Of a stretch of DNA of 64,000 bases, positions 1-18,053 are shown one piece after another. The translations under genes and the position numbers were made by a program. This stretch comes from Deuterostichococcus epilithicus (lineage: Eukaryota; Chlorophyta; Trebouxiophyceae; Prasiolales; Stichococcaceae). How positions within the stretch are numbered: position 1 is the first letter of the stretch; each line of letters starts with the position of its first letter. The notes beneath the pieces were generated by a model. That model was not told the DNA's origin and made no database searches. It saw only the letters and a program-made list of their open reading frames with translations. The stretch is from assembly GCA_033439295.1 (NCBI GenBank), contig JAVTLE010000015.1:496001-560000 (forward strand). Direction: 5' to 3'.

Positions 1-3000
1 GCAGCTGTGGCACGGACACTGCCTCACTCCTGCGAAGGCCTTGAGATCTCAGATGTCTGAAGCAATGCTCTGCAAAGCAATGCTACATTCTGTGTTGCAA
101 GCGTTGTTGACATCACACACGCGGAGGCATTTGAGCTTTGGGTGCGAAACTTGAGAAGCGGCTTGCGCTGGAAATTCTAGATGGCAATTTTCATCGGTTC
201 TGTCAGGCGAATTCGACGACGTGGATGAGGAGGCGTTCGAGAACCGGGTGCAGGCGTATCGCGACTCGCACTCGGCGCTTGCGGTGTCCGATGAATCGGA
301 GGACGTGGTCTTCGAGGGCGGCTTCCGAGTGCCCGCTGACATCTATAACCGCCTGTTCGACTACCAAAAGACAGGTATGTCCCTGACTTTACATGTTGCT
401 GAACAGAGCCGCGGCAGTAGCTTTGTTGTATCGAATGCAGACGCATCGTCGTGCTGCCGGTGTTGTCACGGCTGCAGGGTTTCTGAGCCGCAGCAGTTGA
501 GGTCCTTCGTCTCAGGGGAGCTAACACCCAAGGCTCGTCCAGGGCAGGATGACTGCTACGATGGACACTCTAAACCTAAGAGACGTGTCCTGCTGGCCGC
601 AGGTGTCAAATGGATGTGGGAGCTGCACACGCAGCGCGCGGGCGGCATCATCGGCGACGAGATGGGGCTGGGCAAGACGGTGCAGCTGGCCGCCTTCCTT
701 GCGGGCCTGCACCGCGGAGGCCTCTTCCGGCCCTCCCTCATCGTGTGCCCCGCCACCGTGCTGCGACAGGTGCCGCCGCTGCTGCTGCTGCCTTGACGCC
801 CCGCTGTTCAGCTGGCTCGCATCTGGCGGTGGTTCTTGCCTCTGCACTGCGGAAATTCTAAATCCTGAAGGCGTCATTCACGACGGTGGTGGTGCTGGAG
901 GCGACATGAGGCACAGAAACCAGCCTCAGTTCTCACTTCTCCAGAATGTTATCCTGACATCTCTTACTCTGGGCCGCCGCAGTGGCTGCGGGAGCTGCGG
1001 GCGTGGTACCCGCCCTTCCGTGTCATGATCCTGCACGAGTCGGCGCGGTCCGAGTTTGCCGCACGCCCCTCGCGCGGGTGCGCCCGCCACCCTCCACTGC
1101 CTCGCCTGCATTGCAGTCGCTGCCCACACACAGATGCGATCGCTGACCTTGTGCAGGCGACGATATCATGTGTAGTCTGCACACTCGCAGGCCCTACACT
1201 GAGAAACAGTGACGAAACTGCTACTGCAAAACCGCACCGCGCAGGGACCTGGTGCGCAGCCTGGTCAACAGCGAGGCGGGCATCCTGCTGACCACCTACG
1301 AGCATTTGCGCCTGCAGCACGCTGAGCTTCTGAACGTCAGGTGGGATTTCGGGCTCAGCTCAGACGCATGGCGCTGTCGCTGGCTGCCACCTCCTGTTCG
1401 GCCAGCAGCCTGCCGCACTTCCTGCCGCATTTCCCACTTCGTGCTGCAATCCCCGGCCGACTCCTGCCTGCTGGAGCTCACGATGCGGCTCGCACAGCGC
1501 TTCCCCGCCTGATGGAGGGGTTCAAGCAGCCGCTGACGTCAGGAGGCGTGCACGCTGCAGCCCCCACAGCCTTCCTGAGCTCCTGCGGGGCGACGGATCA
1601 GCACCGCTCCTGATGCAGGGCATGCACCCTGCAGCCACAGAGCCTGCCGCTGCTGCTGCATGCCGCGCGCACCCATGCAGCTCTGCTGTCCTACCAGTTC
1701 TGCTGCCGCGCCGCGTGCCCCCGCGCCTCAGTGCAGCTCTTGGACCCTGCCTGCTGAACCGCCGCTGCATGCTGCAGGTGGGGCTATGCGGTGCTGGACG
1801 AGGGGCACCGCATTCGCAACCCCGATGCGGAGGTCACCCTCATGGCCAAGCAGCTGCAGACCGTGCACAGGTGCGCCTGCACCCGCGCCACTCGATCATT
1901 GTCCGCTCCACTGTTGTGTTGTCCTGCTCATCTCGAGACAGCTTCCCCGACTGGGTCCGCATGTGCACCATCGACGCACACCTTCTGCCATGCACGCGCA
2001 CATGCTGTTGCTGATAGCGCACAAGTCCAGTCCTCCAGCTCTGGCTGAGTTCCTTTCTCAGGTTGTGTGGTTGCGCGCGGCCCCCGCAGGATCATCATGA
2101 CGGGCACGCCGGTGCAGAACCGGCTGCCGGAGCTGTGGTCGCTGTTCGACTTTGTGTTCCCGGGCAAGCTGGGCACGCTGCCGGTGTTCCAGACGCAGTT
2201 CGCGGTGCCCATTCAGATCGGCGGCTACGCCAATGCCTCCTCCATGCAGGTGCCGGTGTTTCAGCGACCGACCTATTCGATATCCGGACGGATTTCGCAA
2301 AGACAGGCATTTCTCGCGGAATACATGCCTCGTCTGCCTGGCGCTTGCTCAATGAGCAGCGCAAGCTTGGTCGCCATGCAAAGCGCGTTGTCTGCGGTGT
2401 TGCAGGGATGGCGCCGCCTGGGAGGCGCCTTCGTGGAATAGAATTCGATAGACTTGCGTTGTTACGCTCATGTAAACGATCTCGCGGCCACAGGTGTCGA
2501 CGGCGTACAAGTGCGCTGTGGTGCTGCGGGACCTCATATCGCCGTACCTGCTGCGGCGGCGCAAGGTGGATGTTGAGGCCGAACTGCCCGAGAAGACCGA
2601 GCAGGTGCCGGTGCCAGGCTCTTGGCTCCGGGACAGACCTCAGGAACACGTGTCAAACACGGCGCAATGCTCTGGGCTGTCCTCGTGGTGGACTTGCGCG
2701 CCAGCGAGTCTGGCATCCGACCTGTTCAGGGTGGCTGACCGCCGCAGCTGCCAATACCCCATTGTTGCTTCAGCGTCCCTGTCGAATGCTGCCATGGCAC
2801 CTGAGAGTCAGTGGGAATCCCTGGCCTACCTCCCCTGCAGCACCTACCTCCCCTGCAGCCGCCTGAGCGGCGAGCAGCGGGGGGCTGTGCCAAGGCGCCA
2901 GCGAGCTGTCCTGCAGCACGTGACAAACTCCCACCCCGAAGCTTTGTGTCGTCTGCTGTTTCGCAGGTGCTGTTCTGCCGGCTGAGCGGCGAGCAGCGGG

Positions 3001-7234: not shown

Positions 7235-7996
7235 CTGCTCACGCGTTGCTGCTGAAGGGGCTGCTGGTAGGGCATGGCAGAGATGGGGCATGGTCATGTG
7301 GTGCTGGATGGCCCTTTGGTGAATCGGAAACCCGCGTGGCGGTCAGGCCGGACCTGCAGGGTTCTAATACTCGCGCACAGCTTCCTGGTCGGTCCGTATC
7401 TGAGTTGACTTAACCCGTTCTTTTTTGAAGCTTGCATGGTGCTAAGCCTCAGCAACGTTCACCCCTTGCTCCTCACCGCTTGTTCTCTGGTTCCTCGGTT
7501 CCCGCTTCCGCAGTGTTTCCCCTCTTCCGCAGTGTTTCCGTCTTGGGCGCCACGCCTATCCAGTCGAAGAACAAGCAGCCAATGGCGTGCATTTGCAGCA
7601 CAGAACAAAATGCACTGGATTGGACTTGAGAGTCCGCCCTGCAGCGTTACCATTTGGATCTCCATCGGTCTGGCCAATGCGATGTCGCTTGACCTCCTGC
7701 AACGCTCGACCGAGCTCCCGTCCGCGTCATGGCCGCGATGACGTCGACGAAGCTGATCTTACTTGCATCCAGCGGCGTGAAAGAGACATGCAGCTTCCCT
7801 AGCCGTAGTTTGCTGGCAGCCGTCGTCTGCATGCTGGCGTGCACAAACGCAGCGGCAGTAGATCCTGGGCAGAAGGCCGGCATGCGACAATCTTGTACAG
7901 CTGCTAGTTTTGCACATAGTGGGGCAAGCTCGTTCGGAAGGTGCATTACGAACGCGTCACAGGCCCTTGCGCCTGTCACGAGGAAGCAGCTTCGCG
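7235..7996. other. Intergenic spacer between ERCC6 and the surface-protein gene
   Basis: No convincing exon is seen. A 15-base tandem repeat (ccgcagtgtttcc core) lies near 7508-7540. An open frame from an ATG at 7729 has a hydrophobic stretch (LLAAVVCMLACTNAAA), but its phase at the only nearby donor does not join the next exon openly, so it is not taken as exon 1. Confidence 0.4.
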
Positions 7997-10900
7997 ATGG
8001 CCAGGTGCGTCGTGACTTCGGTGGATGTGGTTTTCTCGAACGCTCTGGCCAGCATGACCTGCAATGAGATCCAATGTGTGACGGATGCTGACGCAGGGAC
8101 CGGCGGATCCTCACCAGGGCACTCGCTGCTGGCGTGGCGGCTGGCGCTGCTGGAGTAGTTGTGTTGCAAACATGTGCAACATACTACACGCGACAGGAGG
8201 CTGAGAGCGATACAGAGGAACTCATCGATTCTTCCGGCGCTCCTGGCCAGGCCAACAGCGGCAGTGGCAGTAGCACCGCTGGTCGCGCGGCCTTGCCGTC
8301 AGCGGCGCAACCAACAGCGGCTGCAGCGGTGGCTCAGCCGAGCTCGGCTGGGTCTGTAGGCCGCCACAGGAGCCTGGAGGGTGCCTCCTTCGCGCACCTG
8401 CCGCCACCTCTGTACGGTAGCATACCGGCAAATACGGGCACATTGCGACGGCGTTGTCCTTTGCCGGCGCCTGGCGGCAAGCGGCTGCCAGATGCAGGGA
8501 CAGCGGCACCGTCAGCGGCAGGGCATACTTCGGCAGGCGGGGGCGTCACATCCGAAGAGTCAGGAGATGCTGCTGGGCATGTCGGTAAAGCTGAAGAGCA
8601 TCCGAGGGATGCAGCGGCATTGGCGCCAAAGTCAATGCCGCGGACAAAACGAGCGGCCAGGGCAGAAGAAGTGACGTGTGCTGAGTCAGCACCAGCAGGG
8701 GCAGCAGCGGTGGCGACTGCAGCAGCTGTTGGGTCTGCAGCAGCGCCGTCAAAGCCACAGGCGCTTCCAGATCCATCTGCGCAAGTCCTGCACGAAGCAC
8801 GACCAGCACTGCAGCCGTCCGGCTCTTGGTTGTTTGGGTGGGCGGGCCACATGTGGCCGGCCAGCGGCAGCCGCCCAACAGCGCCGGTGACGGCAGTGGC
8901 TGCAGGAGCGACAGCTCAGCAGGCGCCGCAGCGGGCGGCGCCGGCACAGCCGCCGCCTGCACAGGTCACGGACGAGGCGGTGCAACAGACGCCGCCGCAG
9001 CCGGTGGGCGGTGCCCCCGGCCGGGTGGCATCCGAGGGCTGCAAGCCTGCGGCGCTGCGCCAGCCGGCTCATGACCCCAGCTCGGCTGCAGGCAGAAATG
9101 TGGTCATCTCACTGATGCTCGTGTCCATGATGTGGAACCGCGGGCCGCCCGGCGCGGCCGCGGCGCCACCGCAACCCTGGCGCATTGCAGACGGCATCAC
9201 CTACTTCTTCCGCACCGCCAATTTCACACTGGTCAGTCTTGCATGTTCATGCATTCACAGTAGACAGCCTGGACCCCTGCTGCATCAATGTGCACTTGTG
9301 CCAAAAGTTTGCGTGTTGCTTTTCTTCGTTGTCTTTCGTCCTGGGCGGGGTCTGTGGGGCACCCAGAATGCCAGCGACCCAGGCTGCACCGATGCCATTC
9401 GCGGCCATCACAAGTTGACAAGGTTGGAGACACATTCGAGCTTCTGATATCGCAGAGCTACTCACAGTATGTCAACTTCACTGTGGGTTTCCCGGGCTTG
9501 GCGGTGATGAAGGACGCCGCCGCTGACGACGGCTACCGGCTGTTCAACACCGCCAATGCAACGCAGCTCAACTACCCCTTTTTCTTGGCCTCGTGAGCAC
9601 GCAACTTCCAATTCGCCAGTCAGTTCAGTGTCAAGGCTGCCCCGGCAACGACCTGCTGCAAGCCTAATGTGCCCTGATGAGCTGCCGCTACCCGCAGTTT
9701 GCCGGCAGGGACGCTGTTTTTGAGGCAGCAGACCTTGTTTGGGCCAGCTGGTTGTCCTGCTGCCTGGACGACGACAAGCCCCTACAGCTTGGTTCGAAGC
9801 GGAGTTCGAAGCTGCCTCGGTTCCAGCACCGCAGGCTGGAACTGGCCATTGCGGAGGCGGCATGGCTGGACAACTGGATGGGTGTCAACTCTCAGGGCAT
9901 TGACATCATGTCTTGGAGCCAAGCGGCCGACGGCAGGTGAGGCGGCTGTGCAATGCAACAAAGGATGCCAGATGCCGACTGCTGCGGGCTTGCCTGCCCC
10001 ATGCGTTCACCTGATGCTGGGCGTCGAACAGGCGGTATGCACACGACATGTGCAATTTGCTGGGCAACCTGTCTTTGATGCATGTGCATCCGCCTGCTTG
10101 ATGCACTCGGATGCTTAAAGGCGGGGCCGGGAAAGGGTGCTTGTGTGGTGGTGCAGCGGCGCGCAGGCCACCTTCGGGGTGGTCTGGATGCCGCCGCTGC
10201 CGGGCGACACGCCGTGGCGCGGCGCTGTGGCCACTGTCCTGGCGCCAGGACTCTACAACACGCTGACAAACGGCAGCTTCCTGGGGAAATACCTTTCGGC
10301 GCGCCTGCCTTCCATCGACTTTGCTTCCTATGGCGCCCCAGTGGTCGCTGCGGCGGCGCCGGTGAAGCTCTGCGTCAGGAACTGCCCTGCCTGCAGCAAC
10401 ATCGCCTTCTGCCAGAGCCCGCCGCCGCCGCCAAGCCCCAGCCCGCCGCCGCNGCTACCTCCCAGCCCGCCGCCGCCCAGCCCTCCTCCGCCGTCGCCCC
10501 TGCCGCCATCGCCGCCACCTCCTAGCCCTCCGCCGCCCAGCCCTNCTCCGCCCAGCCCGCCTCCCCCAAGTGTGTGTGTTCGCTCGTGGTGTCCGATGCG
10601 GACCGATTTTAGCTGCTGGGGCTGACTTCTTCAAGGCTGAGCAAGGAGTTTCTCGAACTTTTGCATCGTCATTGCCACGACTTCGATAAACTTTCCGGCG
10701 TCGGCCCTGTCACACGCAGCCTGATGTAGCATGGGCACTGGTGTGCAGGGCCGCNGCCGCCCAGCCCGCCACCCCCAAATCCACCTCCCCCAGCCCACCG
10801 CCGCCATCGCCGCCGCCGCCATCGCCCCGCCCCCTTGCCTCCGCCGCCAAGCCCACCTCCACCCAGCCCGCCGCCGNCGCCCAGCCCGCCGCCGGCCCCG

Positions 10901-13900
10901 CCGCCCAAGAACCCATACACGCCGAGCCCCGGGGGCGGCACGTCTGCAATACCGTGGCACCTGGCGGGGTACATCAGCTACTTTGCAAAGACGGCCAATT
11001 GGACGCTGACGTATGCACAGCACATGGAGTTTGACCTCAGCTTTTCGGCCCTCGTGGTCACAAAAGACACTGTGGCTGACGGAGGCTATCGACTGTTCAA
11101 CACCGTCAACGCCACACAGCTGAATTACCCCTTCTTCCTAGCATGGTGAGCACCGGCATTATTGCCAGTTTGCCAGGGTCTGTAGCTCCTGCATGCCACA
11201 AGCCGATTTCTGGATGCCAGCCAAGCCTGTGTGTACTCATGGTTATTAGGAACATTTGGTGCGCATGGCAGCTGATCAGCCAGCAGGCTGCCTCGAGCTG
11301 CTAACGTCAAGGTTTGCACCTCAGGCCCACATGTCACTCTGCCCATGCAGGCTGGAGTTGACCATCTCAGAGGCAGCATGGCTGGACAACTGGTCCAGCA
11401 TTGCATCTCCTGGCATCGAGGCCATGTCTTGGATGCAGACCACCGATGGCAGGTGCAGTATTCCATCTGTGTGGTGTCCACCATGCTTTACGGCTTTGGC
11501 CAGACTGCGCATGCACTTTGTGGTGTGAGACAGGGACCTGCTCTTGTGCATGCAGTCGTGCCTCTTCGAATTGCCTGATCTGTGACTGCGTTGCTCCATA
11601 CTGCAGCGGCGCGCGGGCGACATTTGGCGTGACATGGACGCCGCCGCAGGCCGGCGAGCCGGCCTACCGTGCCTCGCCGCAGGCGCAGCTCGCCCCGGCC
11701 CTGCAGGCTGCGCTGACCAACGGCACCTTCGCCAGCAGGTTCCTCCCACTAGCGCTGCCGGCAGTCGACTTCAGTAGCTACGGCCCGGCTGTAAGCAGCG
11801 TGGCGGCGCCGTTTCGCATCTGCATCTTCAACTGCCCTGTGTGCACCGGCACGGTGTACTGCCAGAGCCCGCCGCCTCCGCTGCCACCCAGCCCGCCTCC
11901 GCCGATGCCGCCCAGCCCACCGCTGCCCAGCCCGCCGCCGCCGTCGCCACCTCCACCAGGCCCGCCGCCGCCGTCGCCGCCTCCTCCAGCCCCCCGCCGC
12001 CCAGCCCCCCTCCCCCAAGTGAGCCTGAATGAGACTGGTCGTCGGTAGTGTGCACTGCAGAGCCACAGGATTGCTTCTGAACAATGCAGCATGTGGCACT
12101 CTCTCGTACAACAAAGGTGCAACTGTATGACTCGAAGAATGAGGGACGCTATTCCAACTTGCCAGGCCCACCTCCACCGNGCCNCCCTCCGCCCTCACCT
12201 CCGCCGCCCAGCCCCCGCCACCCAGCCCACCGCCACCAAGCCCGCCGCCGCCATACCCACCGCCCCCGCCCCCACCTCCTCCGTCGCCCTCGCCGCCGCC
12301 GCCAAGGAACCCTTTTGCGGCCCAGGCTGCTGATGGCACCCCGCCACAGCCGTGGCGGCTGGCAAATTTCATCACCTACTTTGCGAAGACGGCCAACTGG
12401 ACGCAGACGTATTCGCAACACCTCGAGTTTGACCTGGCGTTTGCCAGCCTGGTAGTTGCCAAAGACACTGCTGCTGATGGAGGGTACAGGCTGCAAGACA
12501 CCAGCAGCGGCACGTTGCTGATCTACCCTTTCTTCCTGGCATGGTGCGCCTGCGCATGACCACCCTGCCTGCAAGGCTCGCTGATCCATGCAGCCTCCTG
12601 GACTTTGGCGCCCCAAGTGTGACAGAAAGAGGCACGTCAGACGCGGCGGGAGCCGAGCTATCTGTCTCACGTCAGGGGATCGCCATGCCAATGCATGGGT
12701 GTATCTGCATGGCCTGACATGAACATCAGGCTGTTGACGTCGGCAAGATGTGATTTGCTGTGCGCAGGCTGGAACTGACTATTGCAGATGCCGCCTGGCT
12801 GGACAACTGGGCTGGTGTCAGCTCGCCAGGCATCGAGATCACGTCCTGGACGCAGACTGCGACTGGCAGGTGGGCTTTGTGTGGGTATGCTCTCAGTGCG
12901 CCGCGCGCCAGTTGCACAAGACATCTCCTGGTAGCTGGTTTCGGCAACTACAGAGCTGGGCTGACTGATGACATAGCTGTTGCAGGCGCAGCTGAGGCAG
13001 CGGCAGGGATTGTCGAGATTTATCGATGCTCAAAACCGGCCATCAGGCAGACACCACCGCCCTGCGTAGTGTGCAAAGACCAAAGTATTGCTGGTATGCG
13101 TTGCAGCGGCGCACAGGCACATATTGGCGTGACCTGGACGCCGCCGCAGGCTGGCGAAGCGGCGTACCGCGCTTCGCCGCAGACGCAGCTGGCTCCGGCC
13201 CTGCAGGCTGCGCTGACCAATGGAACCTTCGTCAGCGTCTTCCTCCCTCTGGCGCTGCCGGCCGTCGGATTCAGCATCTACAGCCCGGCCATCGTCAGCG
13301 TGTCGCCACCGCAGCGCATCTGCGTCTTCAACTGCCCGGTGTGCACCAACGCGGTGTATTGTCAGAGCCCGCCCCTGCCACCCGGTCCGCCGCCGCCGCT
13401 GCCGCCGCCACCTGCGCTGCCGCCGCCGCTGCCGCCGAGCCCTGCGCCGCTGCCATCGCCAGAGCTGCCGCCGGCGGCGCCATCCACGGCACAAGACCCC
13501 GCACCGGACGCCGCCGCGGTGCCAACGCCAGCCCTGACGCGGGCGCCGCCGCTACCAAAGGCGGTGGCCGTCAACCAGTGGCACCTGGGCATAAGCTATG
13601 CGGCGCAGACAGGAAATGCGACAGCAGTGTACGCGCCGCAAGTTGTGTTCGACTTGGTGTTCCCCGGATTGAGGACTACCACTGCGGGCCTCGGAGTGGA
13701 CCCGGTGCTCACATATACCAACGGAGCGAATGTGCCATACTTCCTGCCGCTCGCGGCGTGAGGTCCCCTTGTCACTCCCTGCTGTGTTGACCACACCGTT
13801 GAAAACCCTGAACACTAAACCCTAAACCCTATGAATCGGCTACATGAATATCTGAGTTACTTTGGATGGATATCTGAGGTTGCTGCATGTCAGGTTGATC

Positions 13901-16900
13901 AACAGCCTGAAGTTTGCTGCTCAGCAATCGGTGCCGGACCATGCGCACTGTAGTGCGAACTGCCCCGGGCACATGACTCGAATGCCCCGCTTGCAGGCTG
14001 GAGCTGGCAATTGCAAACGCTGGCTGGCTAGATGCCTGGTTCGGATCGGACACCCCCGGCATCGAGCCCCGTGCGTGGCGGCAGTCGACCGGCAGCACCG
14101 CTGCGCAAGCAACCATTGCCGTGACTTACGTGCCGCTGTCCGCCGCGGCGCAGGCCACTGCGCCCTACCTGCAGCTGCCGGCGGTACTGGCGCAGTACCT
14201 GCGGCAGAACTTGCAGAACGGCACCTTCTTCACAAAGTACCTCCGCGACCAGGCCTATGCGTACGACTTCGGGGCGCACGGCGGCGCCCTGCTGGCATCG
14301 CTGGGCGACGCCGTGAATGCTTGCGTGGCCAACTGCCCGTCGCCGCCGGGGGGCCTGCTGCCGCCGGCGCCGCCGCCGGCGCCGCCCAGCCCATTGCCGC
14401 CTCGGCCCCCACCGCCATCTCCGCCGCCGCCCAGGCCCCCGCCGCCTTGCCCACCGCCGCCCAGCCCGCCTCCTCCTGGCCCGCCTCCTCCATGTGAGCA
14501 GCATCGACATTGTCATCAGTCGTAAAGCACAACGATCAGCTGCCTGCTGGTAGCCTCTCTCAGGACAGGCGAATGCATCCAGGGCCACTTGAAGTCGCAT
14601 AGCATTGATTTAAGTGTTCATGCAGGGGCGCCTCCCCCCAGCCCGCCCAGCNNANCACCNCCCAGCCCTCCCTCTCCGCCGCCATGGCCTCCTGGCAAGG
14701 TCCCGCCNAGCCCGCCGCCGCTGTCGCCTCCTCTGCCGCTGCCGCCCTTCCCGCCCCCGCCTGCGCCGCCGCCGCTGCAGCTGCCGCAGGTCTGGCACCT
14801 GAGGGTGTCGTATGCCAACGACACCGGCAACAGCACCGCGGCGCTCGCGCCGCAGCTGGCGTTCCAGCTGCGCTTCCCAGGCCTCAGCGTGGCCGGCAGC
14901 GGCGACACCGCGAAATTTAGGCTGCCAAACGGGACCCTGCTGCAGAACTTCTACATCCTTTCTCCGTGAGTGGCCTAACGAGACCCCACTCTGCAGCTGC
15001 TACAAATGTGAAGGAGTGCCTGCGCCTGCGTCCCTCGATGAAATGCTGGATAGGTGGTCATCATTGCGTTGGAGTTTGCGTGATTGCGATGCAGGTTGGA
15101 GGTCGCGCTGGCAAATGCTGGCTGGCTGGATGCCTGGTTCGGATCGGACACGCCGGGCATCGACCCTGTGGGGTGGACCCAGACGGTGGGCGGAGCCCAG
15201 GGGTCGTTCGTTGTGACATATGTGCCGCTGAGCCCGGAAGCACAGGCGGCCGCCCCCTACCGCCAGCCGCCAACAGTGCTTGCCGGCTACCTGCGCGCAA
15301 ACCTGCTGAACGGCAGCTTCGTCGGCCCCTTCCTGGCGGACCAGGCGTACTTCTTCAACTTTGCGGCAAACGGCGGCGCGGTTGTGGCCGCCGTGGGCAT
15401 CGTCACCCCTGCATGCGTTGCCAACTGCCCGCAGTCCAGCGCCCTGGCCTCGCCGTCGCCGCCCGCAGCAGGCAGCGCAGCCAGGCCACCGCCGCCGGCA
15501 GCAGCCGGCCAGCCAATTGCAGCGCCCAATGGCCAGGCGACTGCGCAGCCTGCTGCCACTCCGACGGCTCAGCCTACCGCCGCTCCAACTGTGCGCTCAC
15601 CGCCGCCGCCTTCGCCATCAAACAACACACCCACGGCAGCAAGGAGCCCGCCACCGGGAGTTGTGCCAACGATCGGCTCCACCCAGGCGCCAACGGCCGG
15701 AATTTCGGACAACCCGACTACAGCTCCCATTTCCGTACCCACCGCTGCACCCAGCGCAGCCGGTGCCGCTTCCCCACCGCAGCCGCCAGTGAAGCAGCAG
15801 CCGCAGCCCACCGCCATGCCCACCGCAACGCCGACGCCAGCATACCCAGCCCCATGGGTGCTGCAGCCGACATTTGCGCAGGAGACCGGCAACACGACGG
15901 TCCTGCTGGCGCCGCAGCTGCGTTTCAGCCTGGCGTTCGACAGAATGGAGGTTCTGAATGTCAGTGGCACCATTATGCTGCAGGACGGCGCTGGTGACGT
16001 GCCAATCGATATCCGCATGTTCGATCTCTGGTGCGCTGCGGTCCTGTGATGTCGTGACCTTGAGACGCAGCACACTACACAGCGTCTACAATGGAAACCA
16101 TACCTGATCTCCCTGTCATGCGCCCACGGTTGCTTGCAGGCTGCAGCGTATCATAGCCGCCGCTTCAGGGCTGGACGCCTGGACGAATGTGGACTCACTG
16201 GGCATCCAGCAGCTGGCCTTTGTGCCCACATCTGGAGGCAGCGCCAGAGCCGACCTCGCCGTTACATGGCTGCCGCTGCCGCCCGACACACAGCAGCCCT
16301 ACAATCAGCCGCCTGCGCAGCTGCAGGTGTCCGTGCGATGTCATATTTGCTTCACGTTCTCCGGTGGCAGCATCACACTGGATGTATCTTCTTTACAACG
16401 GACTCGAACCGTGCGTGACTGTTGCACGATCCATCCTTCTGCTGTCAGCACATATTTGCACCTGTGTCACTCACATATGGCGACCCCTTTTTCTGCAGGC
16501 AGCACTGCAAGGCCTGCTGACGGGCGGCAGGTTCATTTCCGACTGGCTGCCTGCGGTGCAGCCCTACATTGACTTTGCAGCCTACGGCACCCGTGTAGCC
16601 TCCGTGCAGCCGGCCGGCCAGGTGTGCATCGCCAACTGTGCCCGGGCGCCGCCCCAGCCACCACCCAGCCCCCTGCCGCCGCCGTTCCCGCCCAACCCGC
16701 CCCGCCTGCCGCGGCCGCCGGCGCCACCGCCGCAGCCTCCCGCTGCGCCTGCGCCCATCGGCGGCGCCGCCGCCGGGGCGGACGCGCCTCCTGTGCCGGG
16801 CGCTGCCGGCGGCGAGCCGACAGACCCGAACGGCAGCCCGCTGACGGGCGTTCCAGCTGCGGCGCCCGCCGCAGCACCAGGCACGGCCCAGACAGTCGCT

Positions 16901-18053
16901 CCCACTGGCGCCCCATCGGGAGCTGGAGGCACCGCCGGCTTGATGCCCAGCCCGCCGCCACCGCCTGCGCCTGCCGTGGTGCCTGTCCAGGTGCCCCGAG
17001 AAGCCGCCGAATCTGCCGCCTTTCGACTGAGACGCAGCACGCACGTCATGCAGCGAGGTTGAGGCTGCGCATGGGCACAGCCAACCGCTCTTGCGCCACC
17101 TGCGCCCCACCGAGCTGCACCAGCCAATCGATGCGACATGCTGTCGATCGTCAGATAAATTTCAAATTGCACCATGTGACGGCTGATTTCAGTCAGCTTT
17201 TGTGGACAGGTGGTGTTCGTGGCGAGCCTAGCCGGCTACACTGTGACGAGCTTCAACCAGACCGTCAGAGACACATACCTACAGAGCATACAAGTGAGGA
17301 CAGCAGCGTGGAAGTCCGACACAGCGTCGCAGTAAGCTGAAGCGCGCCTGTGGCCAGACATGACATGCCCTGGCTTCTTCTGATGTTGCGAAAGCACAGG
17401 CATGTTTGAGCCCCACACCATGATGTGTGTCGCCGCAGAATGCGACTGCGCCCGCAGTCGTCGACATTGTCATTCTGGCGGTGAAGCCGTCGGCCTCCGG
17501 TGGCATCAACGTATCCACAAGAGTTACATATGAAGGCTCCCCTGACGGCGCGCCCGCAGCCTTCCAATTCATGCTGAAGACGGATCCGGGTTCCGTGTTC
17601 TCACCCGAAACCTTCAGCGCCGTCAGTGTGTCCAACGTAGCCGCCTCCAGTGTTGAGCCAGGTGAGCTGGGCGCTCATCTGGCGCAGGCTCCTCCCGATG
17701 CTGCACTGCATGCATGAAGCACTGCCTGGTGCCTGGCCAACCCAGGGTGGCTCGCTCGTGTGTCCTCGAAGGCGTTGTGTCGTCTACAGGGCATAGGCAT
17801 CATGCATCATGCGCGATACCTGCAATCGTGGATCGACCGATGTGATGGTGTCTGCCATGCAGCGCCGCCGCCGCCCAATGGCCAGGACGATGCCAAGAGG
17901 TCGTCAAGCCATGTTGGAATCATCGTGGGCGTCACGCTCGGCTTCATAGCCCTGATTATGTTGGTGGCCATTCTGGCTTTGTGGCTGCGCTGTCGGCGAA
18001 AGCAGCGTGCGCAGGCTGCGGGCAATGCGCCGCCGCTGGCGGAGCCGCTGTAG
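7997..18053 (+). CDS. Giant modular cell-surface protein: six repeated modules, Pro-rich linkers, C-terminal TM
   Basis: I read 19 exons: 7997-8004, 8097-9231, 9456-9592, 9835-9936, 10157-10569, 10749-11145, 11351-11452, 11607-12018, 12166-12543, 12768-12869, 13107-13757, 13997-14493, 14626-14965, 15095-16030, 16140-16326, 16499-16990, 17210-17293, 17439-17661, 17863-18053, about 2,260 residues. The start MAR joins RRILTRALAAGVAAG, a likely signal or anchor segment. An Ala/Pro/Gln-rich part follows, then six modules of about 170-190 residues, each split into half A (FAKTANWT, PFFLAW) and half B (AAWLDNW, TNGTF, CIFNCPVC). Modules are joined by PPPPSPPPPSP-type linkers expected to be hydroxyproline-glycosylated. 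Conserved NWT and NGT sequons suggest N-glycosylation. After module 6 come a membrane-proximal domain (GYTVTSFNQTV), a TM helix (about 17917-17985) and a short basic tail. I do not recognise the module; pherophorin-like wall proteins are the nearest idea. Frame breaks in the linkers between modules 1-2 and 2-3 coincide with N bases. The first two exons are the least certain. Confidence 0.8.
9157..10420 (+). repeat. Surface-protein module 1
   Basis: Half A begins QPWRIADGITYFFRTANFT and ends NYPFFLAS. It is interrupted by an intron (9232-9455) not found in modules 2-6. Half B is LELAIAEAAWLDNW through a 102-base exon, then SGAQATFGVVW to NCPACSNIAFC before the linker. Confidence 0.85.
10937..11876 (+). 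repeat. Surface-protein module 2
   Basis: Half A runs from IPWHLAGYISYFAKTANWT to NYPFFLAW in one exon. Half B has the 102-base exon (11351-11452) and SGARATFGVTWTPPQAG to CTGTVYC. It is closely similar to modules 1 and 3. Confidence 0.88.
12340..13370 (+). repeat. Surface-protein module 3
   Basis: Half A runs from QPWRLANFITYFAKTANWT to YPFFLAW. Half B has the 102-base exon 12768-12869, then SGAQAHIGVTWTPPQAG to CTNAVYC. The donor after half A is gtgcgc. Confidence 0.88.
13568..14340 (+). repeat. Surface-protein module 4 (divergent)
   Basis: Half A (NQWHLGISYAAQTGNAT to PYFLPLA) has lost the FNTxNATQLNYP segment. Half B (LELAIANAGWLDAWFG to ACVANC) is a single exon without the intron that follows the 102-base exon in modules 1-3, and its second cysteine pair is missing. 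Modules 4 and 5 are closest to each other. Confidence 0.85.
13808..13832. repeat. Interstitial plant-type telomere repeat
   Basis: The tract ACTAAACCCTAAACCCTA carries two full CCCTAAA-type units plus partial ones (an upstream ccctgaacact is a degenerate unit). It lies in the intron between halves A and B of module 4. Confidence 0.75.
14791..15430 (+). repeat. Surface-protein module 5 (divergent)
   Basis: Half A is QVWHLRVSYANDTGNST to NFYILSP. Half B is LEVALANAGWLDAWFG to ACVANCPQ. The downstream linker is Thr/Ala/Pro-rich rather than pure Ser-Pro, with repeated PTAxPT units. Confidence 0.85.
15856..16640 (+). repeat. Surface-protein module 6 (most divergent)
   Basis: Half A is WVLQPTFAQETGNTTVLLAP. 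Half B starts LQRIIAAASGLDAW and ends VCIANCA. A phase-0 intron at 16327-16498 is private to this module. Confidence 0.8.

Follow-up and report, generated by a model that had tools for sequence, protein, structure and literature searches.

On its forward strand, the window, i.e., the whole stretch of 64,000 nucleotides of Deuterostichococcus epilithicus DNA that was analyzed, contains a predicted gene for a protein in which six copies of a module are strung on Pro-rich linkers and followed by a membrane-proximal domain, a transmembrane (TM) helix and a short basic tail (Table 1). With roughly even confidence we propose that this is one gene, encoding a type I membrane protein, a hydroxyproline-rich glycoprotein that contains a globular domain of a new kind and acts as a membrane-to-wall tether. 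To our knowledge, the mechanism that holds the membrane to the wall in walled algae is poorly known. A single chain composed of beads, rods and an anchor is a testable candidate for such an attachment and adds an unnamed domain family.

Table 1. Predicted features, with positions counted from the first letter of the window.
Feature	Position	Strand	Details
Candidate first exon	7729..8004	+	contains an ATG and the hydrophobic segment LLAAVVCMLACTNAAA, a possible signal peptide; inferred choice among many that keep the frame
N-terminal region before module 1	8197..9174	+	low-complexity, Ala/Pro/Ser-rich
Module 1	9175..10415	+	exons 9175-9231, 9468-9592, 9835-9936, 10157-10415
Linker 1-2	10416..10951	+	119 aa, 60% Pro; intron 10570-10748; N bases 10453, 10545, 10755, 10877
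Module 2	10952..11865	+	exons 10952-11145, 11351-11452, 11607-11865
Linker 2-3	11866..12349	+	97 aa with 66% Pro in the model; intron 12019-12211, chosen from six joins that keep the frame
Module 3	12350..13365	+	exons 12350-12543, 12768-12869, 13107-13365
Linker 3-4	13366..13572	+	69 aa, 45% Pro; no intron
Module 4	13573..14339	+	exons 13573-13757, 13997-14339
Linker 4-5	14340..14786	+	105 aa, 65% Pro; intron 14494-14625; N bases 14652-14708
Module 5	14787..15431	+	exons 14787-14965, 15095-15431; copy used for structure model
Linker 5-6	15432..15848	+	139 aa, 27% Pro, 73% Pro+Ala+Ser+Thr; no intron
Module 6	15849..16642	+	exons 15849-16030, 16140-16326, 16499-16642
Linker 6-tail	16643..16990	+	116 aa, 36% Pro
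Membrane-proximal domain	17210..17661	+	about 100 aa; exons 17210-17293, 17439-17661
TM helix and tail	17863..18053	+	IIVGVTLGFIALIMLVAIL, basic RCRRKQR, short tail, stop

The relationship of the six modules is evident from a tblastn search of the whole genome with module 2, in which every other copy had one or more pieces matching at E 1.8e-6 or better; blastn detects exon similarity in five of 15 module pairs. The close pairs M1/M2, M1/M3, M2/M3, and M4/M5 show dN/dS values of 0.26-0.32, with dS about 1.2-1.3 in three of the four, and eight more distant pairs, M1 left out, give dN/dS of about 0.45-0.83, an unreliable estimate with dS near or above 1. Across nine aligned modules a sequon at column 17 is present in all and an NG[TS]F sequon in eight (module 6 lacks it), and the sequons total 32 compared with 11.8 ± 3.2 in 2000 shuffles. 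Each module contains two to four cysteines. The preliminary description had regarded sequons and a C-x(2-4)-N-C core as kept in the repeats; both are borne out, the core even in the tighter form C-x2-N-C (9/9).

The same description found no family that it could name for the module, and this stands. Pfam yielded no family above cut-off for any of the nine aligned modules, the matches at E <= 1 being LegC3_N (two members, best 0.25) and DUF6950 (one member, 0.1), with neither the DUF3707 pherophorin domain nor the SEA family model among them; two single modules and a 502-aa two-module stretch matched no Pfam family at E <= 10. The nine modules gave a single weak NCBIfam match (one module, E 0.17), a profile search of PDB sequences gave none at E <= 10, and no close relative was found in viral contigs or in prokaryotes, represented by one genome per species. 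It is for these collections that "previously unrecognised" holds.

The Pro-rich spacers reported earlier are likewise present, with Pro contents of 27-66%, and from position 12166 to the end SP(3 or more) motifs occur 10 times and runs of at least three Pro 28 times. In having such motifs within extended Pro-rich regions, the protein agrees with hydroxyproline-rich glycoproteins. The predicted gene also ends as described, with membrane-proximal domain, TM helix (19-aa hydropathy 3.01) and short basic tail. No Pfam family exceeded its cut-off for the membrane-proximal domain and tail; the best of six sub-threshold matches, Adeno_E3_CR2 (3.6e-5, 23.9 bits, cut-off 36), spans tail residues 117-154, which comprise the TM helix with its flanking residues, and was rejected as a generic TM match. 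Profile comparison found no relation between the modules and the tail domain.

For the proposed tether, the TM helix would fix the chain in the plasma membrane, and the prolines of the SPPP stretches would become hydroxyproline and be O-glycosylated, turning the linkers into stiff spacers. Each domain carries one to two conserved candidate N-glycan sites and the C-x2-N-C motif where it exits into the rod. Held at several distances from the membrane, these beads would bind glycans of the wall or coat, or would pair via the C-x2-N-C cysteines, and by such binding or pairing the chain might act as an extended membrane-to-wall tether. The presence of light-harvesting genes in the genome also counts in favor of this reading. 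Membrane anchoring is not established as a family trait, since no TM-like stretch was found after the modules at one further, paralogous locus, C16, which has four module copies. Weak tblastn matches on C14, C10, and C3 (modules) and on C7 and C6 (tail query), with E between 0.17 and 2, were rejected after their + strand frames had been read, in which no module pattern is seen.

The confinement of the conserved module to these two loci in the genome scan, and the Pro-rich stretches and another unnamed domain near the modules at C16, would also suit an outward adhesin, in which lectin-like or adhesive beads serve cell-cell or surface contact and any link between membrane and wall is incidental. 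Several beads on probably glycosylated rods fit multivalent binding; however, the module Pfam results contain no lectin family and the structure model is too weak to map a binding surface, and we regard this possibility as doubtful, albeit of appreciable weight. We consider it unlikely that the protein is a membrane mucin-like coat, in which the glycan mass itself forms a layer that is protective or hydrated and the modules merely space and stabilize the rods. The order of tandem domains, Ser/Pro-rich spacers, membrane-proximal domain and TM helix is indeed MUC16-like, but the modules are conserved in sequence, in sequons and in cysteines, which suggests a role beyond spacing.

In the predicted model, which was built from the DNA alone, 19 exons between 7729 and 18053 together encode 2,298 aa, six of them unknown, in a single frame that is free of internal stops; all 18 introns are GT...AG, and the product runs from a candidate signal peptide through the six modules and their linkers to the membrane-proximal domain, the TM helix and the basic tail. 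Preservation of the frame decided the choice of exon 1 and of the junction in linker 2-3; across this linker six joins preserve it, and the best-looking donor, GTGAGC at 12019, works only with the acceptor at 12212, which places N bases 12180 and 12184 within the intron. The exact linker sequence is unsure because of single N bases and places where the PPSPP pattern slips the frame. These irregularities, together with the choice of the linker 2-3 junction, could point to two or more adjacent genes with a few modules each. Such a division is improbable given that the 19 chosen exons form one open frame, that modules 3 and 4 (exon 13107-13757) and modules 5 and 6 (exon 15095-16030) are joined in common exons, and that a single frame is open from module 3 through the TM helix. 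The six-module surface protein originally described is confirmed in its modules and open frame, and its surface location we infer from the sequence.

The predicted N-terminus is tentative. A protein start at 7997, as initially assumed, is doubtful, as the frame from there runs into a TAG at 8156-8158. In a trial with donors up to 8060 and acceptors up to about 8200, the four frame-keeping joins listed for this start use the donors GTGGTTT or GTTTTCT, and the ATG at 7729 uses CAG/GTGCGT. The stretch LLAAVVCMLACTNAAA in the candidate first exon has a 19-aa hydropathy of 1.75, and a second, weak hydrophobic stretch, NVVISLMLVSMMW, lies near the end of the low-complexity region. Pfam found no family above cut-off in the N-terminal stretch.

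Each module is probably a single domain of about 170-200 aa rather than the two-part unit first described. The halves correspond to exons, and in every one of the six copies the domain is split at the identical point by a phase-2 intron. The ten A/B and B/B introns show no blastn-type match to one another at 1e-3. The fold prediction suggested earlier was run on module 5 and gave a weak AlphaFold model (mean pLDDT 58.4, pTM 0.56, residues 56-124 below 50), the input for which retained an in-frame intron and had one of 20 extra alignment rows partly misplaced. The model shows a single core, in which the A part supplies strand 1 and the B part all other strands and the helices. The element order is beta-alpha-beta-beta-alpha-beta at low confidence; the four strands and helix 2 count in favor of it, and helix 1 is below pLDDT 50. 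Modelled alone, the B part gave a weak model with lower strand scores, although from a shallower alignment.

The fold may be ferredoxin/SEA-like, judged by this predicted element order. Foldseek against the PDB returned nothing at E <= 0.001, and among the 50 matches listed were three SEA structures (E 1.7, 3.5, and 4.5) and 15 PR-10/START-like ones, including the top one. That the beads are PR-10/START (helix-grip) pocket domains binding small ligands at the surface is nevertheless very improbable, as all these matches have E 0.73 or worse and target-normalised TM-scores of 0.12-0.32, and the long sheet of the helix-grip fold is missing from the modelled element order. That the protein serves a virus or symbiont as receptor or contact partner, for which the sole point is its expected exposure on the cell, deserves hardly any weight, with no close relative in viral contigs and no Foldseek match at E <= 0.001 in a viral structure library, neither being a strong test; among the three functions originally guessed (tether, adhesin, virus or symbiont contact), the tether is the best and the viral one is unsupported.

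SEA kinship of the module is unproven, because the searches of Pfam, NCBIfam and PDB sequences identified no family and Foldseek gave nothing significant. The self-cleavage motif of SEA domains, which sits between strands 2 and 3, is not conserved here: one of the nine aligned rows (module 5, GSFVV) has GS at this site. As SEA domains without the motif exist, this argument is weak. A further, rather unlikely conception is a membrane mucin peculiar to a photosynthetic lineage, with tandem SEA-like domains on hydroxyproline rods that replace the Thr/Ser mucin repeats, either convergent or derived from an ancestral SEA/ferredoxin-like surface domain, and with C-x2-N-C cross-linking the beads into a sheet on the membrane. 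It is weakened by the low confidence of helix 1 and by the excess of PR-10/START-like over SEA matches. A limited literature search linking the SEA domain with Chlamydomonas found nothing, which does not imply absence from print. The tandem-domain membrane mucin plan is described in animals, and it would reach beyond them if the fold were SEA-like.

Known systems resemble the proposed tether to different degrees. Like MUC16, which has a short basic tail, the protein has a TM helix and a short tail, and its spacers are glycosylatable by sequence; mucin repeats are less Pro-rich than these spacers. The resemblance to MUC16 and to pherophorins is one of layout only. MUC16 has a SEA domain in every tandem repeat and one in the C-terminal region, with conserved cysteines for which disulfides are proposed (PMC4046138), and MUC16-type mucins share the domain order and membrane span set out above. 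Pherophorins are extracellular glycoproteins whose two globular domains are joined by a rod that is rich in Pro and hydroxylated (PMC9818292), a combination that is similar to the beads, globular by our reading, and rods of the present protein. It differs from them in having six beads where they have two, together with a TM helix and two to four cysteines per module, and no module matches DUF3707. With plant extensins and arabinogalactan proteins it shares the SP(3 or more) motifs, which are expected to be hydroxylated and glycosylated; whereas those proteins are mostly low-complexity and often GPI-anchored or wall-bound, the protein described here combines its rods with six predicted folded domains and a TM helix.

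The window corresponds to C13:496001-560000. Its region from 7729 to 18053 on the forward strand holds one large gene, real and, from its sequence, apparently intact, coding for what is probably a surface protein that bears an unnamed domain. The exons of this gene, joined across 18 GT...AG introns, encode 2,298 aa with a final stop only and six unknown residues, and module 3 through the TM tail forms a single open frame. The translation contains six copies of the domain (modules 1 to 6); the end of module 3 and the start of module 4 share one exon, as do the end of module 5 and the start of module 6. Each module is divided into an N-terminal A part and a C-terminal B part by a phase 2 intron whose position all six copies share. 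By eye, about 2.5 copies of CTAAACC, the plant-type telomere unit, were spotted in the module 4 intron (about 13810-13835). The linker between modules 1 and 2 is open as assembled, while for that between modules 2 and 3 the donor GTGAGC at 12019 and the acceptor at 12212 were chosen among six frame-keeping joins; the exact sequence of both linkers is not to be trusted because of partly slipped PPSPP frames and single N bases. Exon 1, whose frame is kept by many joins, is the least sure piece of the model, with ATG 7729 preferred as start because its donor is clean and it provides a hydrophobic stretch resembling a signal peptide. Among nine frames scanned in the window, two matched Pfam at E <= 0.001 (see table).

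A search of the genome (46.8 Mb, 21 contigs) with copy 2 recovered pieces of all six modules, in agreement with the preliminary description, and one further locus on contig C16; as the search ranks best candidates only, a distant copy could have been missed. The light-harvesting family gave 39 exon-wise matches in this genome, all over cut-off; the host is a photosynthetic eukaryote and in all likelihood a green alga. Reading of the C16 sequence revealed four module copies (about 1,031,260-1,036,230), of which copies 3 and 4 are nearly identical: with copy 3 as query, the B part scored 301.9 bits on itself vs 299 on copy 4 and the A part 153.5 bits on both, and these last two modules (C16:1034000-1036400) look like a recent duplication. 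A signal-like stretch precedes the first C16 copy (19-aa hydropathy 1.80), and no 21-aa stretch of hydropathy >= 2.0 follows the modules in the forward frames up to 1,042,000, a scan that an intron-split TM helix would escape. The C16 product may be secreted, in which case a soluble matrix protein could have its anchored partner in the six-module protein of the same family. Adjoining the C16 modules (about 1036900-1039000), a different unnamed domain (FDDLAGDEVVPSSYGG...) occurs twice in near-identical form between Pro-rich stretches; it matched no Pfam family at E <= 10. On contig C3 (L058, about 9600), a Pro-rich frame with a domain that looks like PA14 is followed by long PPSPPP repeats.

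The six modules and three of the four C16 copies were aligned (about 170-200 aa), and nine columns show no variation (W, T, N, L, G, F, C, N, C). The sequons described as conserved bear this out: the nine modules carry 32 vs 11.8 +/- 3.2 in 2000 shuffles (maximum 24), and one column is filled in 9/9 and another in 8/9 modules, while shuffles never exceeded three per column. The cysteine core, proposed as C-x(2-4)-N-C, is kept in all nine with the spacing narrowed to C-x2-N-C, closely followed by two extra cysteines in five. dN/dS was 0.26-0.32 for module pairs 1/2, 1/3, 2/3 and 4/5 (protein identity 53-74%), and about 0.45-0.83 for eight more distant pairs without module 1, which are too saturated to weigh (dS near or >1). 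Blastn matched exons in 5 of 15 module pairs and found no match among the ten A/B and B/B introns.

The module had been said to match no nameable family, and this held: Pfam and NCBIfam gave none over cut-off (few weak matches, E 0.1 or more), and a module profile found no PDB chain at E <= 10. A search with module 3 alone, which reaches close relatives only, gave pattern matches in viral contigs (15) and prokaryote genomes (78), all of which failed confirmation at E <= 1e-3.

Module 5 was chosen for folding since its intron is a multiple of three and fits a contiguous translation (stops read as Gly); the alignment held 20 other module pieces, one partly misplaced. The best model (mean pLDDT 58.4, pTM 0.56) has the order beta-alpha-beta-beta-alpha-beta, with ten-residue strand blocks up to 77-87, the second helix at 70-76 and residues 56-124 (intron and first helix) below 50 in pLDDT.

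Features located in the window and in the module 5 model
Feature	Position	Strand	Remark
SNF2-related domain PF00176	155-796	+	Pfam, 1.3e-14
Mitochondrial carrier PF00153	55087-55818	-	Pfam, 2.5e-19
Model strand	21-33		A part
Model helices	101-113, 117-121		start of B, including about five intron residues
Model strands	126-135, 138-146
Model helix	164-176
Model strand	201-214

The B part folded alone (13 rows) kept helix-strand-strand-helix-strand with blocks peaking at 72; its lower scores may be due in part to the alignment being shallower. Instead of the two-part module initially described, the models fit a single domain whose first strand would come from the A part. Foldseek of the module 5 model against PDB gave no match at E <= 0.001 and 168 at E <= 10, making the topology suggestive only. 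Among the 50 listed, 15 including the first (E 0.73) are PR-10/START-like by title, and the modules have a small chance of being such domains; three are SEA domains (2e7v, 8vm1, 7sa9; E 1.7-4.5) and two carry ferredoxin-like titles (5c2u, 3fmb). A MUC16-like reading of the protein is attractive and, resting on this low-confidence model, rather improbable.

The predicted parts of the protein are a signal-like start, Pro-rich rods, sequon-bearing beads (the modules), a membrane-proximal domain, a TM helix and a basic tail. By analogy with hydroxyproline-rich proteins and membrane mucins, as treated in parts of PMC9818292, PMC4046138 and the review PMC10762512, the rods would be hydroxylated and stiff, the bead sequons would be in use, the beads might bind glycans or one another, and the chain would tie the membrane to the wall. 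The protein would be a variant of the plan of modular hydroxyproline-rich surface proteins, one that carries an unnamed domain.
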